A DNA stretch of 41,854 nt from a virus. The translations under genes and the position numbers were made by a program. The DNA lies in the IMG/VR virus record IMGVR_UViG_3300034106_000421, positions 1 to 41,854 of that record. One strand, 5' to 3'. Shown one piece after another: positions 4,836 through 40,701 of this stretch (position 1 is the stretch's first letter; each line of letters starts with the position of its first letter). The notes under the pieces were generated by a model. The model saw nothing but the letters and a program-made list of their open reading frames with translations. It made no database searches and was not told where the DNA came from.

Positions 4836-5167
4836 TGGACAAGAAAGTTGTTGAATTAGTCCATGCTAGGGCGGCGGGCTACTGCGAAAAGTGCGGTATG
4901 CCTGCCCTGGAGAACATGGCGTTGCATCACAGAAAACTTAAATCTAGAGGCGGAAAGGACACACCTGCCAATCTAATTTATGTGCATCACGGGTGTCATA
5001 ATTTGAAAACCGATAGTATCCACCTTGCACCAGGCTATGCCACGGAAAAAGGTTGGATCGTTCCATCTTGGGAAGAACCGACCAGTTTTCCAATGGTCAA
5101 GCCTGATGGCACAATTGTCTTATTACAAGATGATGGTACAGAGGCCATTATGATGGAAGGTGATTAA
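4835..5167 (+). CDS. HNH endonuclease, 110 aa
   Basis: HNH nucleases cut DNA with a beta-beta-alpha-metal active site. Here the zinc knuckle CEKC (C17, C20), the LHHRKLKSRGG core (H31/H32), the Asn of ANL (N46) and HHGCHN (51-56) are all present in order. It starts with GTG, sharing bases with the upstream TAG. It lies directly before SSB, not beside the terminase, so it could serve recombination, host DNA degradation or homing, although no intron or intein is apparent nearby. HNH proteins also help some terminases; distance makes that less likely. Confidence 0.9.
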   Translation: MDKKVVELVHARAAGYCEKCGMPALENMALHHRKLKSRGGKDTPANLIYVHHGCHNLKTDSIHLAPGYATEKGWIVPSWEEPTSFPMVKPDGTIVLLQDDGTEAIMMEGD

Positions 5168-5526
5168 TGCAAATTACAGTTAAAGGCAATGTTGGTAATG
5201 ACATTGACTTAAAATTTAGTAAAAATAATAAGGCTTATGCAACATTTAGTTTGGCCTATACACCAAGAACTAAACAAGGTGATCAATGGGTTGATGGCGA
5301 TACAACTTGGTTTAGAGTTGTTCAGTTTGATAAAAAGGCTGAAGCGCTCGCAGACTCAATTAAAAAAGGTGACAGTGTTGTTGTTGTAGGTGAAATGAAA
5401 CAATCCACATACAAAGACCGTGACGGCAATGACAAATCAGTGCTTGAAATTACTGCAACTGATGTAGGTTTAGTACCTAGATTACAAACTAAGTCAAAAG
5501 CGAAGGAGCAGATGCCAACATGGTAG
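5167..5526 (+). CDS. ssb: Single-stranded DNA-binding protein, 119 aa
   Basis: The N-terminal 105 residues fit the SSB OB-fold: GNVGNDIDLKF, then TPRTKQGD, WFRVVQFDKKAEALADSIKKGD and VVVVGEMKQSTYKDRDG. It binds ssDNA during replication and recombination. The usual long flexible linker and acidic DDDIPF-type C-terminal tip are missing; the protein ends KEQMPTW, so it may not recruit host partners the way bacterial SSB does. Coupled with the HNH gene by the TAATG overlap. Confidence 0.92.
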   Translation: MQITVKGNVGNDIDLKFSKNNKAYATFSLAYTPRTKQGDQWVDGDTTWFRVVQFDKKAEALADSIKKGDSVVVVGEMKQSTYKDRDGNDKSVLEITATDVGLVPRLQTKSKAKEQMPTW

Positions 5527-5708
5527 AAGAAAATTTATTAAGCGCGGCTGAAGTTACGGAATTGTTAGGCATTACATTAAACAATTTGCGTCAAATACAA
5601 CACCGCAAAACTCTTACTTGGGTTTCTAAAAGCGGGCGTAATGTTTATTATCGCAAAGAAGATGTAGAGGCTTATCAAGTTAAAAGAAGCGCTCGCGTTA
5701 ATGGCTGA
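5520..5708 (+). CDS. MerR/excisionase-like helix-turn-helix DNA-binding protein, 62 aa
   Basis: The whole protein is one winged helix-turn-helix of the MerR/Xis type: LLSAAEVTELLGITLNNLRQIQ is the HTH and the VSKSGRNVYYRKEDVEAY end is the wing-strand and final helix. Such proteins act as excisionases or small regulators. No integrase was found in the genome, so a regulatory role, or a relict, fits better than excision. It overlaps ssb by 7 bases. Confidence 0.8.
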   Translation: MVEENLLSAAEVTELLGITLNNLRQIQHRKTLTWVSKSGRNVYYRKEDVEAYQVKRSARVNG

Positions 5709-5896: not shown

Positions 5897-6091
5897 ATGC
5901 TGACCATAGAAAAAGAAGTAACTATTGCTGAGATAGATGAAGCCATCAGCAATGTTCACGCTATGTTAAAAACAGACACCTATGGCAACCGCATGGATTG
6001 GCGCAAAAAACAGATTTTGCAAACATCTTTAGATGATTTATTAGACGCTAGATTAAATTTACAAAAGACAGGTAACGCAGTCATTGAGTGA
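5897..6091 (+). CDS. Hypothetical helical protein, 64 aa
   Basis: Predicted two helices, acidic and basic residues balanced, no membrane segment. No clear Shine-Dalgarno sequence precedes the ATG (the upstream bases are pyrimidine-rich), so translation initiation may be weak or leaderless. It is the last clear gene before the terminase control region. Function unknown. Confidence 0.6.
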   Translation: MLTIEKEVTIAEIDEAISNVHAMLKTDTYGNRMDWRKKQILQTSLDDLLDARLNLQKTGNAVIE

Positions 6092-6167
6092 TGCAGGCTT
6101 TGATGAAACCTGGATTGATACTGATGATCTAAGAATTACGCTATGTCACGAAGGTAACCAAAAGTAA
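6084..6167 (+). CDS. Possible short ORF with TTG start, 27 aa
   Basis: A TTG overlaps the end of the previous gene and opens a 27-codon acidic frame that runs into the GTAAC repeats. Supporting evidence is weak: there is no good ribosome-binding site and no family, and the repeats downstream suggest the region is regulatory. Included as tentative only. Confidence 0.2.
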   Translation: MSDAGFDETWIDTDDLRITLCHEGNQK

Positions 6168-6213
6168 CCTTATGTAACTTTCCCTCAATTTGCGGGATAA
6201 AGTTTCCTAGAAT
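6154..6213 (+). promoter_or_regulatory. Helically phased GTAAC repeats and promoter before the packaging genes
   Basis: GTAAC occurs at 6154, 6164 and 6174, an exact 10-base period, so the three copies face the same side of the DNA helix. A -10-like TAGAAT follows (6208-6213), 15 bases before the terS ATG at 6228. No good -35 is visible at 17 bases, which fits a promoter needing an activator bound at the repeats. Alternatively the repeats are a TerS recognition (pac) site, since TerS sites often lie beside terS. The sequence shows only the repeats; both roles are inference. Confidence 0.55.
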
Positions 6214-6227
6214 AAAGTGAACACATA

Positions 6228-6749
6228 ATGGTAAACAAAACCCCACTACATGAGTTGGTTGATCGTGAGAAGCAGATCATTGAACTACGCATTGAGGGCT
6301 TTACCTGGAGGCAAATAGCAGAGCGAACACAAATGTCACCAGCAGGAGCGCTAAAGGCTTACAACCGTGCAATGGTTAGAACGCTTAAACCAGCATCTGA
6401 TGAATTGCGTGAATTGGAATTAGATCGCCTAGATACGCTCCAACAAACTTATTGGCAACCAGCAGTGCAGGGAAATCTAAGAGCCGCAGATTTCATTTTG
6501 CGCGTAATTGATAAGCGGGCAAAGATCTTGGGGCTTGATGCTCCAACTAAGATCCAGGCAGAGGTGGTGACTTATGACGGAGGAACAAATCTTGACGCAG
6601 AAGTTGATGCAATCGCAAGACTCATTGATGCAAGCACAACCGTTGCTGATGACGGAACAGAGATCCACACCATCACTGAATTCCAGGATCAAAGCGAGCA
6701 GGTGGGTATGGAAAAACAAACTGGCCAGGAAGGAACAATTACCGCCTGA
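6228..6749 (+). CDS. terS: Terminase small subunit, 173 aa
   Basis: TerS recognises the packaging site on concatemeric phage DNA and delivers it to TerL. The N-terminal 55 residues carry a helix-turn-helix (RIEGFTWRQIAERTQMSPAG). A helical oligomerisation region follows (about 57-110), and then an acidic, low-structure tail. The assignment rests on this domain plan and on adjacency to an unmistakable TerL. Its last 176 bases overlap the annotated start of terL in another frame, which is unusually long. Confidence 0.8.
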   Translation: MVNKTPLHELVDREKQIIELRIEGFTWRQIAERTQMSPAGALKAYNRAMVRTLKPASDELRELELDRLDTLQQTYWQPAVQGNLRAADFILRVIDKRAKILGLDAPTKIQAEVVTYDGGTNLDAEVDAIARLIDASTTVADDGTEIHTITEFQDQSEQVGMEKQTGQEGTITA

Positions 6750-8004
6750 AGGTGATTGGAACATTTGGCTTTACATGGCTGGCAGAGGTGCTGGAAAGAC
6801 CCGTACAGCCGCAGAATGGCTTGCCTGGGAGGCTATTAGACAGCCTGCTACAAGATGGGCCATAGTTGCCCCTACCTTTTCTGACGCAAGAGATACATGC
6901 GCTGAAGGTGAATCAGGCGTAGTTTCTGTTTTAAATCGCTTTCACATGTTACAGAATTACAACAGATCTATTGGCGAAATCTTATTAACCAATGGAAGCC
7001 GCATAAAACTTTTTTCTGCTGATCAACCTGAACGCTTTAGAGGACCGCAACATCATGGGGCTTGGTGTGATGAATTAGGTGCATTTAGATATGAAGAAGC
7101 CTGGGATCAATTGCAGTTTGGATTACGCCTTGGCAAGAAACCTAGAGTTGTTGTAACTACTACTCCGCGCCCAACTCCTTTAATTAGAATGTTGGCTAAC
7201 CGCAAAGACGGATCTGTAACTATAACCAGGGGAACTACATTTGATAACGCGGCTAATTTAGCCCCATCTGCCCTCATGGAACTCCAGGCGCGATACAACG
7301 GAACAAGATTAGGCAGACAAGAACTTTATGGCGAAATTCTTGATGATGTGGAAGGCGCTTTATGGACTAGAGGCGTAATTGACCGCAACCGTGTAGATGC
7401 ACAACCAGCGTTATCCAGGATTGTAGTTTCTATTGACCCTGCTGTAACCAGTAATGAGAAATCAGATGAAACAGGAATTGTTGTTGTTGGATCTAGTAGT
7501 GACGGGCAAGGTTATGTACTGGGAGATTACAGTTTCAAAGGATCGCCATTAGCCTGGGCAACAAAAGCCGTAGATTTGTTTGACGCATATAAAGCAGATG
7601 CAATCCTGGTAGAAGTAAACCAAGGCGGAGATATGGTTAGTGCAGTTTTGAAACAAGTAAGATCAGGGATACCGATTAGAGAAGTGCGAGCGCATGTCGG
7701 TAAGAAATTACGGGCTGAACCAGTAGCGGCAATGTATGAACAAGGCAGAATCCACCATGTAGGAGAATTTGCCTGGCTAGAAGATCAAATGACTAACTGG
7801 ACACCTGAAGATCCATACTCCCCCGATAGAATTGACGCACTTGTACAAGGATTTTCTGATTTACTTGGCAAGGTAACGGTTAGCAATTACTTTAATGCGA
7901 TTTCTAACATGTGTCCTAGTTGCGGGCTACCAATGCCTAAAAGTTTTGGCAACTGTTCCGCATGTGGAGCGGCTATGATTAGCACTGTTTCTGAAGGAGA
8001 ATAA
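6574..8004 (+). CDS. terL: Terminase large subunit, 476 aa, with C-terminal zinc ribbon
   Basis: ATP-driven DNA packaging motor and headful/site nuclease. Walker A is AGRGAGKT (residues 69-76) and the Walker-B-type acidic motif is WCDELGAF. The nuclease domain begins SIDPAVTSNEKSDETG, with further acidic positions at ILVEVNQGGD and PDRIDAL. The final 31 residues hold CPSC and CSAC knuckles (C447, C450, C461, C464), a zinc ribbon not usual in this family. The start at 6574 has GAGGTG upstream. A later in-frame ATG (6649) would still leave the conserved ARKEQLPPEGDW entry intact. Confidence 0.96.
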   Translation: MTEEQILTQKLMQSQDSLMQAQPLLMTEQRSTPSLNSRIKASRWVWKNKLARKEQLPPEGDWNIWLYMAGRGAGKTRTAAEWLAWEAIRQPATRWAIVAPTFSDARDTCAEGESGVVSVLNRFHMLQNYNRSIGEILLTNGSRIKLFSADQPERFRGPQHHGAWCDELGAFRYEEAWDQLQFGLRLGKKPRVVVTTTPRPTPLIRMLANRKDGSVTITRGTTFDNAANLAPSALMELQARYNGTRLGRQELYGEILDDVEGALWTRGVIDRNRVDAQPALSRIVVSIDPAVTSNEKSDETGIVVVGSSSDGQGYVLGDYSFKGSPLAWATKAVDLFDAYKADAILVEVNQGGDMVSAVLKQVRSGIPIREVRAHVGKKLRAEPVAAMYEQGRIHHVGEFAWLEDQMTNWTPEDPYSPDRIDALVQGFSDLLGKVTVSNYFNAISNMCPSCGLPMPKSFGNCSACGAAMISTVSEGE

Positions 8005-38940: not shown

Positions 38941-39605
38941 TTGATCTTCAAGACCTATTGACCAAATCTTTAGTGGGCCATGATCAATCCAGGGCGCGAT
39001 CTAAACAAATTGAGATTGGTCCATCTAGTGCTGGAGGTTGTCGCCGCAGAGTTTGGCATGACTTAAAGCAAACAGAAAAAACTAATCAAACAGAAACGCT
39101 GGCCGCAATTCTAGGTACTTTTATTCATGCTGGTGTAGAAAAATCAATTCAAAGGTTAGATCCATTTGGTGATAATTATTTAATTGAATTAGAAGTAAGT
39201 TACGGTGACCTTAAAGGTCATTGTGATTTGTTTATTAAAGACCAAGGGCTTGTTGTTGATTGGAAAACTACAACTAAAAAAGGCGCTAGGTATTTTGGTA
39301 ATCAACAACAACGCTGGCAAATTCAACTTTACGGTTGGTTGCTAGCAAATAACGGTTATGAAGTAAAAGATGTCGCCCTAGTCGGTATTCCCCGTGATGG
39401 CGGCATGAAGGACATCTTGGTACACAGAGAACCGTACAACCCAAACATTGCACAAGAAGCATTGAATTGGTTACAGGAAATTAAAGAAATTGTAGATTTG
39501 GGTAAATCTGCACCTGAACCTGAAAAGCCAATTGCATTTTGTGCATCTTACTGTCCATATTACGATCCAACGGGGGAAATAGGTTGCCCAAGTACGGTGA
39601 AGTAG
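38937..39605 (+). CDS. Cas4/RecB-like PD-(D/E)XK exonuclease with Fe-S cysteines, 222 aa
   Basis: Likely resects DNA ends for recombination. The nuclease core is visible: GTFIHAGVE, then GHCDLFI (D97), VVDWKTT (D108, K110) and QIQLYGWLL. Four cysteines, C35 before the core and C202, C206, C217 after it, match the Fe-S cluster layout of Cas4/AddB nucleases. GTG start overlapping the upstream TGA. Together with the SSAP-like protein at 37225 it forms a probable exonuclease-annealase module. No CRISPR array is present. Confidence 0.88.
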   Translation: MIDLQDLLTKSLVGHDQSRARSKQIEIGPSSAGGCRRRVWHDLKQTEKTNQTETLAAILGTFIHAGVEKSIQRLDPFGDNYLIELEVSYGDLKGHCDLFIKDQGLVVDWKTTTKKGARYFGNQQQRWQIQLYGWLLANNGYEVKDVALVGIPRDGGMKDILVHREPYNPNIAQEALNWLQEIKEIVDLGKSAPEPEKPIAFCASYCPYYDPTGEIGCPSTVK

Positions 39606-39910
39606 ATTGGGAAAAGGCTGGTTGTAAAGAAATTTACACTGATCTTTTTTACCGCGTAGAAGAAGAACGCAGTGTTGTTGCTTATGACAATATCAACGCA
39701 CTGCGGACTGTTTGCGCGGCTTGCCCTATTTGGAAAGATTGTTTAACTTATGCAATGGAGCATGAAAATTATGGAATGTGGGGCGGAATGACTAGCATTG
39801 AACGCATAAGCATTACGCAACCAACAAAATATCCAAATCAATTAAGCAGGGCTTTAAAATCTTTTGATGAATTAGGAATTAGTTTGGCACAGATACAGGA
39901 GTGTTTATGA
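39584..39910 (+). CDS. WhiB-family Fe-S transcription regulator, 108 aa
   Basis: WhiB-like proteins carry a [4Fe-4S] cluster and bind the host principal sigma factor; they occur only in Actinobacteria and their phages. Key residues: C14, the CAACPIWKDC block (C44, C47, C53), and GMWGGM (64-69). DLFY and SIER flank them, as in the family. TTG start with GGGGGAAATAGG upstream, in overlap with the nuclease gene. It lacks a long basic C-terminus; the protein runs on into a helical tail. Likely redirects host transcription to phage promoters. Confidence 0.93.
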   Translation: MPKYGEVDWEKAGCKEIYTDLFYRVEEERSVVAYDNINALRTVCAACPIWKDCLTYAMEHENYGMWGGMTSIERISITQPTKYPNQLSRALKSFDELGISLAQIQECL

Positions 39911-40701
39911 GTATCCGTTTGATGTCTGATGTGTGGAGAACAAGTTTGCCAACAGTAGAGAAGATGGTGCTGTTGGTAATTGCTGATCATGCAAATGATG
40001 AAGGAACGCAGTCATATCCGTCACAGGCCACGATTGCTTCCAAAGCATCTATCAGCATCAGAACTGTCCAGCGTTCTGTAAACAATCTAGTTGAGCGGGG
40101 ATTCATTAGAATGTTTAAAGGCGCTGGAGGTTCTGCAAATTGCAGAGAGGACCGCAGACCACATCTTTATCAGATTAATATTAATAAATTACGGGCTGAC
40201 ATTGTGACGGGGCGTAGCAATGACGCTAACGGGGTGACATTGACGGCGGTTACGGGTGGACAATCACGCCCCATGAACCACCCTACTGAAACATCAATTA
40301 AACCATCAGAGTTGTTTGAAGAATTTTGGAAAATCTATCCACGCAAAGTTGCTAAACAAGCCGCTTTAAAGTCATGGGTAAAAATAATTCAAACAACAGA
40401 TCCTGAGATAGTGATTCGAGGGGCTACAAGGTACTTATTAGACCCTAATAGATCTCCAACATACACAGCACACCCCGCAACCTGGTTAAACGCTCACAGA
40501 TGGCTTGATGATGCTTTGCCAGTTCGTAATGTATCTCCTGAAGAAAAGAGGGAAAAAGAATTACAACTCAGCAAACAAAAAACAGAACGCGAACGCCAAG
40601 AATTTTTGGATTGGCAGAAGGAACAAGAATTACAAAGACAGAGATCCGTTCCACCACCACAAGAATTACGGGATCTTGTCAAAAAGATTGCTACAAAATA
40701 G
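39907..40701 (+). CDS. Winged-helix replication initiator-like protein, 264 aa
   Basis: The N-terminal domain (about 1-90: PTVEKMVLLVIADHANDEGTQSYPSQATIASKASISIRTVQRSVNNLVERGFI) is the HTH_36 winged helix used by phage replication initiators. The C-terminal part (FEEFWKIYPRKVAKQAALKSWVKI, TWLNAHRW) is a common partner domain in phage and plasmid replication proteins, ending in a Gln/Glu-rich helix. Start at 39907 has AGGAG at good spacing; a GTG at 39901 is too close. No DnaB or DnaC gene follows, so it probably recruits the host helicase. Confidence 0.82.
   Translation: MSIRLMSDVWRTSLPTVEKMVLLVIADHANDEGTQSYPSQATIASKASISIRTVQRSVNNLVERGFIRMFKGAGGSANCREDRRPHLYQININKLRADIVTGRSNDANGVTLTAVTGGQSRPMNHPTETSIKPSELFEEFWKIYPRKVAKQAALKSWVKIIQTTDPEIVIRGATRYLLDPNRSPTYTAHPATWLNAHRWLDDALPVRNVSPEEKREKELQLSKQKTERERQEFLDWQKEQELQRQRSVPPPQELRDLVKKIATK

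Follow-up and report, generated by a model that had tools for sequence, protein, structure and literature searches.

A possible clade-specific operator of GTAAC repeats beside the conserved terS promoter of a probable freshwater actinophage

An array of short GTAAC direct repeats lies just upstream of terS in the window, the whole 41,854-base viral record analyzed here, which is classed as linear. A regulatory site is the best reading of this array because its first two copies look constrained between the window and two relatives, L003 and L007. In the form that we tentatively favor, at rather less than even confidence, the array would be an accessory, clade-specific operator beside a near-leaderless terS promoter. 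Sequence inspection confirms the repeats exactly as originally described, with copies on the + strand at 6154, 6164, and 6174 and a spacing of 10 bases. The array and the features that bear on its interpretation are as follows.

5167-5526, SSB gene, upstream of the array
5520..5708, + strand, HTH_17 (BldC/Xis-type) DNA-binding protein of 62 aa, a candidate binder
5897-6091, unknown ORF, upstream of the array
6084..6167, + strand, probable small ORF of 27 aa (LSDAGFDETWIDTDDLRITLCHEGNQK) that ends inside the array
6154..6178, + strand, GTAAC array, GTAACCAAAAGTAACCTTATGTAAC, three copies at 10-base spacing
6154..6174, + strand, apparently constrained part of the array, GTAACCAAAAGTAACCTT(A/T)TG, with two copies of GTAACC, from comparison of L003, L007, and the window
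6185..6227, + strand, conserved terS promoter with a TCAATTTG block, -35, 17-base spacer, -10, and leader GAACACATA, from alignment of 56 distinct relatives
6228..6749, + strand, terS, a small protein with a sigma70-r4-like HTH (phrog_645), immediately 5' of terL
6574..8004, + strand, terL, terminase large subunit
39539..39910, + strand, WhiB-like regulator
39901..40701, + strand, O-like replication initiator with internal direct repeats at 40189-40262

The label 'RNase E' attached to phrog_645 is probably wrong because the gene sits before terL. Relatives of TerL occur in actinophages of Gordonia, Microbacterium, and Arthrobacter, and the nearest relative in a bacterial genome (L273, 77%) lies in an Actinomycetota MAG. 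These relationships point to a freshwater actinobacterium as the probable host.

The promoter next to the array was defined by the 56 distinct relatives, which share a common core of TCA(A/T)(T/C)TTGnnn-N17-TAACAT, TAAAGT, or TATAGT. In the window, this core corresponds to a -35 of TTGCGG at 6190-6195 and a -10 of TAAAGT at 6213-6218, separated by a spacer of 17 bases. As judged from this alignment, it appears to be an ordinary -35/-10 promoter common to freshwater actinophage lineages. The original prediction of a promoter lacking a -35 does not hold, as TTGnnn is conserved in this register across the 56 relatives. It had also taken TAGAAT (6209-6214) as the -10, which is the wrong register, and the position of that hexamer is not conserved among the relatives. 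After the -10, the terS relatives have a leader of 6-9 bases, such as GAACACATT, followed by ATGG, and no Shine-Dalgarno sequence is visible in the leader before the terS ATG. We infer that transcription starts near 6225, about 7 bases past the -10 and only a few bases from the ATG. Together with the missing Shine-Dalgarno sequence, this start would make the terS message leaderless or nearly so. The occurrence of short-leader terS promoters across freshwater actinophages suggests that leaderless late messages are used in this group. The core promoter is present without the array in most relatives, so the array is apparently not needed there. In some relatives, the end of a gene or a terminator hairpin stands directly against the -35, and in the window 11 bases separate the end of the array from it.

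Relatives were sought in environmental contigs because the annotated phage collection contained no DNA-level match to the array region. Searches with terS gave overlapping sets of 63, 73, and 34 loci, and the comparison set consisted of 56 distinct upstream-plus-core terS sequences. Two GTAAC copies at a spacing of 10 are found in three of them, namely the window type, the L003 type, and L007. A structured RNA element occupies the same slot, or lies slightly upstream of it, in 25 others, and the remaining 28 have neither; in many of these 28, coding sequence reaches right to the promoter. The array is intact in L001 and L006, which are near-identical to the window, and in L002, L003, and L008, whose terS is 94% identical. 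It is absent from the group with 49-56% terS identity and from every sister-lineage sequence examined. The 10-base phasing, whose conservation in aligned relatives had been proposed as a check, is retained for two intact copies in L007 (terS 76% identical), whereas the third copy has degenerated there to GCCAC, and L004 and all other lineages lack the array altogether.

The comparative evidence for copies 1 and 2 comes from the 21 bases that begin at 6154, GTAACCAAAAGTAACCTTTTG. This 21-mer is identical between L003 and L007 at 21 of 21 positions and matches at 20 of 21 in the window, while only 33 of 54 4-fold sites in terS (61%) are identical between L003 and L007, and 28 of 54 (52%) between the window and L007. 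For this reason, copies 1 and 2 appear to form a unit under constraint that accompanies the promoter. Copy 3 does not, and is apparently a lineage-specific extra. BLAST homology between L007 and the window starts exactly at 6154, and the gene upstream of this point in L007 is unrelated. Moreover, the stretch from 6154 to 6174 contains a dyad, CAAAAG-TAAC-CTTTTG, which is perfect in L003 and L007 and has one mismatch in the window.

Chance is a serious rival to the operator, and it is possible, with a lower likelihood, that the array is a coincidence in which the end of the small ORF (GGT AAC CAA AAG TAA) and the adjoining spacer were inherited by a few phages. GTAAC is the only exact 5-mer with a period-10 triplet in the 41,854-base record. 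Dinucleotide-preserving shuffles, however, give a mean of 0.11 period-10 5-mer triplets per genome, and 10% of the shuffled genomes contain one or more, so the triplet count alone is not beyond chance and only mildly unusual. The last codons of the small ORF include copy 1 and end on the TAA within copy 2, so that a probable coding end overlaps the two copies in question, and 53 of the 56 distinct upstream sequences lack the array. Coincidence is harder to reconcile with L007, where the 21-mer is unchanged despite a different upstream ORF and a divergence of about 39-48% at the 4-fold sites of terS. The retention there is also local, because the ten bases that follow the 21-mer have diverged. 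L003 encodes a 28-aa homologue of the small ORF with several synonymous changes, while L007 has an unrelated ORF instead. Two other explanations were rejected. The TAA within each repeat (6155, 6165, and 6175) would stop all three reading frames at this spacing, but this is probably a by-product because only two repeats are kept in L007. An intrinsic terminator is likewise not indicated, as the RNA fold of the array is no better than that of shuffled sequences (z of -1.4 in the window, 0.3 in L003, and -0.5 in L007) and no terminator-like site occurs there on the + strand.

In the operator reading, a small clade of freshwater actinophages would have placed a binding site directly 5' of the conserved terS promoter. 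A DNA-binding protein, encoded by either the phage or the host, may contact the pair of constrained GTAACC copies, which share a helical face, or may instead recognize the overlapping CAAAAG/CTTTTG dyad. Its binding site would lie some 50-70 bases 5' of the transcription start, and the bound protein would tune transcription of the terS operon, whether by activation or by repression. The array has the position at a promoter that an operator should have, and sequence constraint is seen for copies 1 and 2 only. The phage also encodes HTH_17 and WhiB-like regulators. Against the operator, the triplet is found in only three distinct sequences, with its third copy lost in L007, and in both the window and L003 the 3' end of the small ORF runs into copies 1 and 2. 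Thus, the earlier proposal of a regulatory array at terS is partly supported, through the two copies that look constrained among L003, the window, and L007, but the array is specific to one clade (3 of 56 sequences) and stands beside a promoter that has a -35. From the distribution of the array, it appears to be dispensable both for TerS function and for the core promoter.

The identity of the putative binder can be narrowed by comparison with known systems. HTH_17 proteins of this kind, such as BldC, bind direct repeats in a head-to-tail arrangement (PMC5859096). Like the sites of this class in Streptomyces, the array consists of head-to-tail repeats of about 9-10 bp (PMC5859096), and an HTH_17 protein is encoded 0.5 kb upstream. 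In contrast, the BldC consensus, AATTNNNN(C), is unlike the array. The HTH_17 protein is not named as the binder because relatives without the array conserve its gene just as well. The WhiB-like protein, which had also been suggested, was set aside since its gene is present at 39539-39910 but no link to the array was found. Operators of phage late or structural promoters with short direct repeats likewise have in-phase repeats, which here abut the terS -35. Compared with such operators, only two copies are constrained here, the binder is putative, and the site belongs to one small clade.

The RNA that fills the slot in other relatives is an uncatalogued structured element. It consists of hairpin 1, whose loop is often GAAACAUAAGUA, an invariant GAGUGCUGGAYA, and a terminator-like hairpin closed by GGACA/UGUUC. 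No Rfam family matches it. Examples were located at the following positions, and further loci carry it too.

L004, 2052-2124, two-hairpin RNA
L016, 4712-4786, two-hairpin RNA
L017, 4868-4941, two-hairpin RNA
L258, 2663-2735, two-hairpin RNA
L259, 2649-2724, - strand, two-hairpin RNA
L251, 3315-3391, two-hairpin RNA

The element lies in the array slot or slightly upstream of it in L004 and L009-L019, and it is also present in roughly half of the sister lineage. Covariation is strong, with double changes that keep pairs in 30 cells compared with 9.9 in shuffles; for hairpin 1 alone, the values are 30 and 9.9 (13 sequences). In addition to its place 5' of terS promoters, the element occurs just before P-loop ATPase and lipoprotein genes, and it may therefore be a terminator-based leader or attenuator.

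Because of the shared slot, descent of the array from this RNA has to be considered. Copies 1 and 2 would then mark the points where arm meets loop in a hairpin, AAGGU-AACCAAAAGUA-ACCUU, derived from hairpin 1, with the linker and the terminator-like hairpin deleted. This origin is unlikely, although several observations are consistent with it. A model of the element, R1, scores 8.1 bits at 6149-6204, where hairpin 1 consists of standard pairs throughout (E of 0.024 in a search of 501 bases); the corresponding position in L003 scores 7.2 bits. The loop-plus-stem pattern occupies the slot in each of the three array phages but is otherwise rare. Local alignment to a form with hairpin 2 deleted gives p of about 0.0005-0.02 for the window and L003 against elements of the same loop type, but there is no similarity to elements with the other loop type, and the deletion junction was picked after the sequences had been seen. 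Over the whole window, the R1 match at the slot ranks only fourth, with an E of 2, and with the better-sampled model R2 the slot is neither among the 15 best window matches nor listed in L003 or L007. A hairpin 1 with a loop ending in AAGUA at the array has a weak R1 match and small p values, but it is not among the R2 matches listed. Furthermore, the GAGUGCUGGA linker is missing at the array, and searches of the window, including those with R1 and R2, found neither the linker GAGUGCUGGAYA nor the closing hairpin 2 in the window. Somewhat less likely again is the fuller version, in which the array derives by trimming from an uncatalogued phage RNA element that controlled read-through into the terS promoter, its terminator half lost and its hairpin 1 selected as a protein-binding site.

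A site for a host regulator of the OmpR type (MtrA, or GlnR) that is exploited by the phage is improbable. In Streptomyces, MtrA recognizes the direct repeat (G/T)T(G/A)ACC-N5-GT(G/T)ACN (PMC5650626, PMC13189361), which closely resembles GTAACC-N4-GTAACC. MtrA boxes of Actinomycetota share with the array both the GTnAC direct repeats and the C that follows (PMC5650626, PMC13189361). Additionally, 47 of 60 genomes from the order of L273 have a match to the MtrA model NF040689 that exceeds the cut-off, although the best match in L273's own genome falls below it. The published copy-to-copy spacing is 11, whereas that of the array is 10, a value that among published half-site pairs is seen only for bldD-a. 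Across 99 genomes of L273's order, which may not be that of the host, GTAACCN4GTAAC shows no enrichment, with 26 occurrences; the backward control has 104. The regions upstream of 30 mtrA genes contain no GTnAC pairs at 10 or 11, and genomes of candidate hosts have no excess of GTAACC repeats at a spacing of 10 or 11. A host MtrA box was therefore rejected on both spacing and genome enrichment.

The original prediction also offered a pac-type site for TerS, and this alternative is weakened by one of the refuting conditions that had been set for it, lack of conservation where terS is the same. In such a pac or cos-type site, the repeats would be contacted by successive HTH domains of the TerS ring. 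Like pac sites recognized by TerS, the array lies directly 5' of terS, and in-phase repeats would suit a ring, yet it is not conserved even with an identical protein: the TerS of L004 matches that of L003 over 160 of 160 residues, and L004 lacks the array. Lineages with TerS of 49-76% identity have no array or two copies. A larger GTAACC cluster about 100 bases 5' of a Terminase_2 gene in an unrelated group of phages (45 contigs) could be taken in favor of packaging, but the TerS of that group is unrelated, and its inverted copy and AT-rich flanks make the cluster more operator- or origin-like. Packaging was thus abandoned as the main reading and seems barely credible.

That cluster was found in a viral scan for GTAACC-N4-GTAACC-N4-GTAAC, which gave at least 119 stretches compared with a total of 44 for the backward pattern; the matches listed fall into 56 flank clusters. 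Among these matches, the 45-contig group (L130, L086, and L067-L182) conserves five GTAACC boxes and one GGTTAC box 5' of a Terminase_2 terS; the surrounding region is AT-rich and contains CTATAG-like elements, and these phages are unrelated to the window. Also among the matches listed, 10-base GTAACC arrays adjoin genes for VapE, D5, DUF5906, prim-pol/primase, or helicase in many unrelated phages (L066, L089, L128, L145, L149, L155, L157, and others), and these arrays look like origin iterons of that initiator class. The scan shows that GTAACC boxes recur in control or origin regions of phages. A look-alike in a distant relative, L246 (GTAACCAAATGTAACCTTTTGTTAC), lies inside an opposite-strand ORF of 268 aa and was treated as a coincidence.

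Neither form of replication origin was retained for the array in the window. No gene of the VapE/D5/DUF5906/primase type is present among the scanned window ORFs, and the O-like initiator, with its own repeats, lies 33 kb away. The repeats at 40189-40262 comprise three 13-base repeats of the TTACGGGCTGACA type, candidate origin iterons, and would be a likelier origin than the GTAAC array.

Overall, if the operator reading is true, related actinophages would retain a single near-leaderless terS promoter while exchanging the control module before it, be it an operator, a structured terminator RNA, or plain coding sequence. A misleading pac candidate is also removed. Since late-gene control in actinophages is poorly known, the slot before this promoter would offer a compact and testable system.
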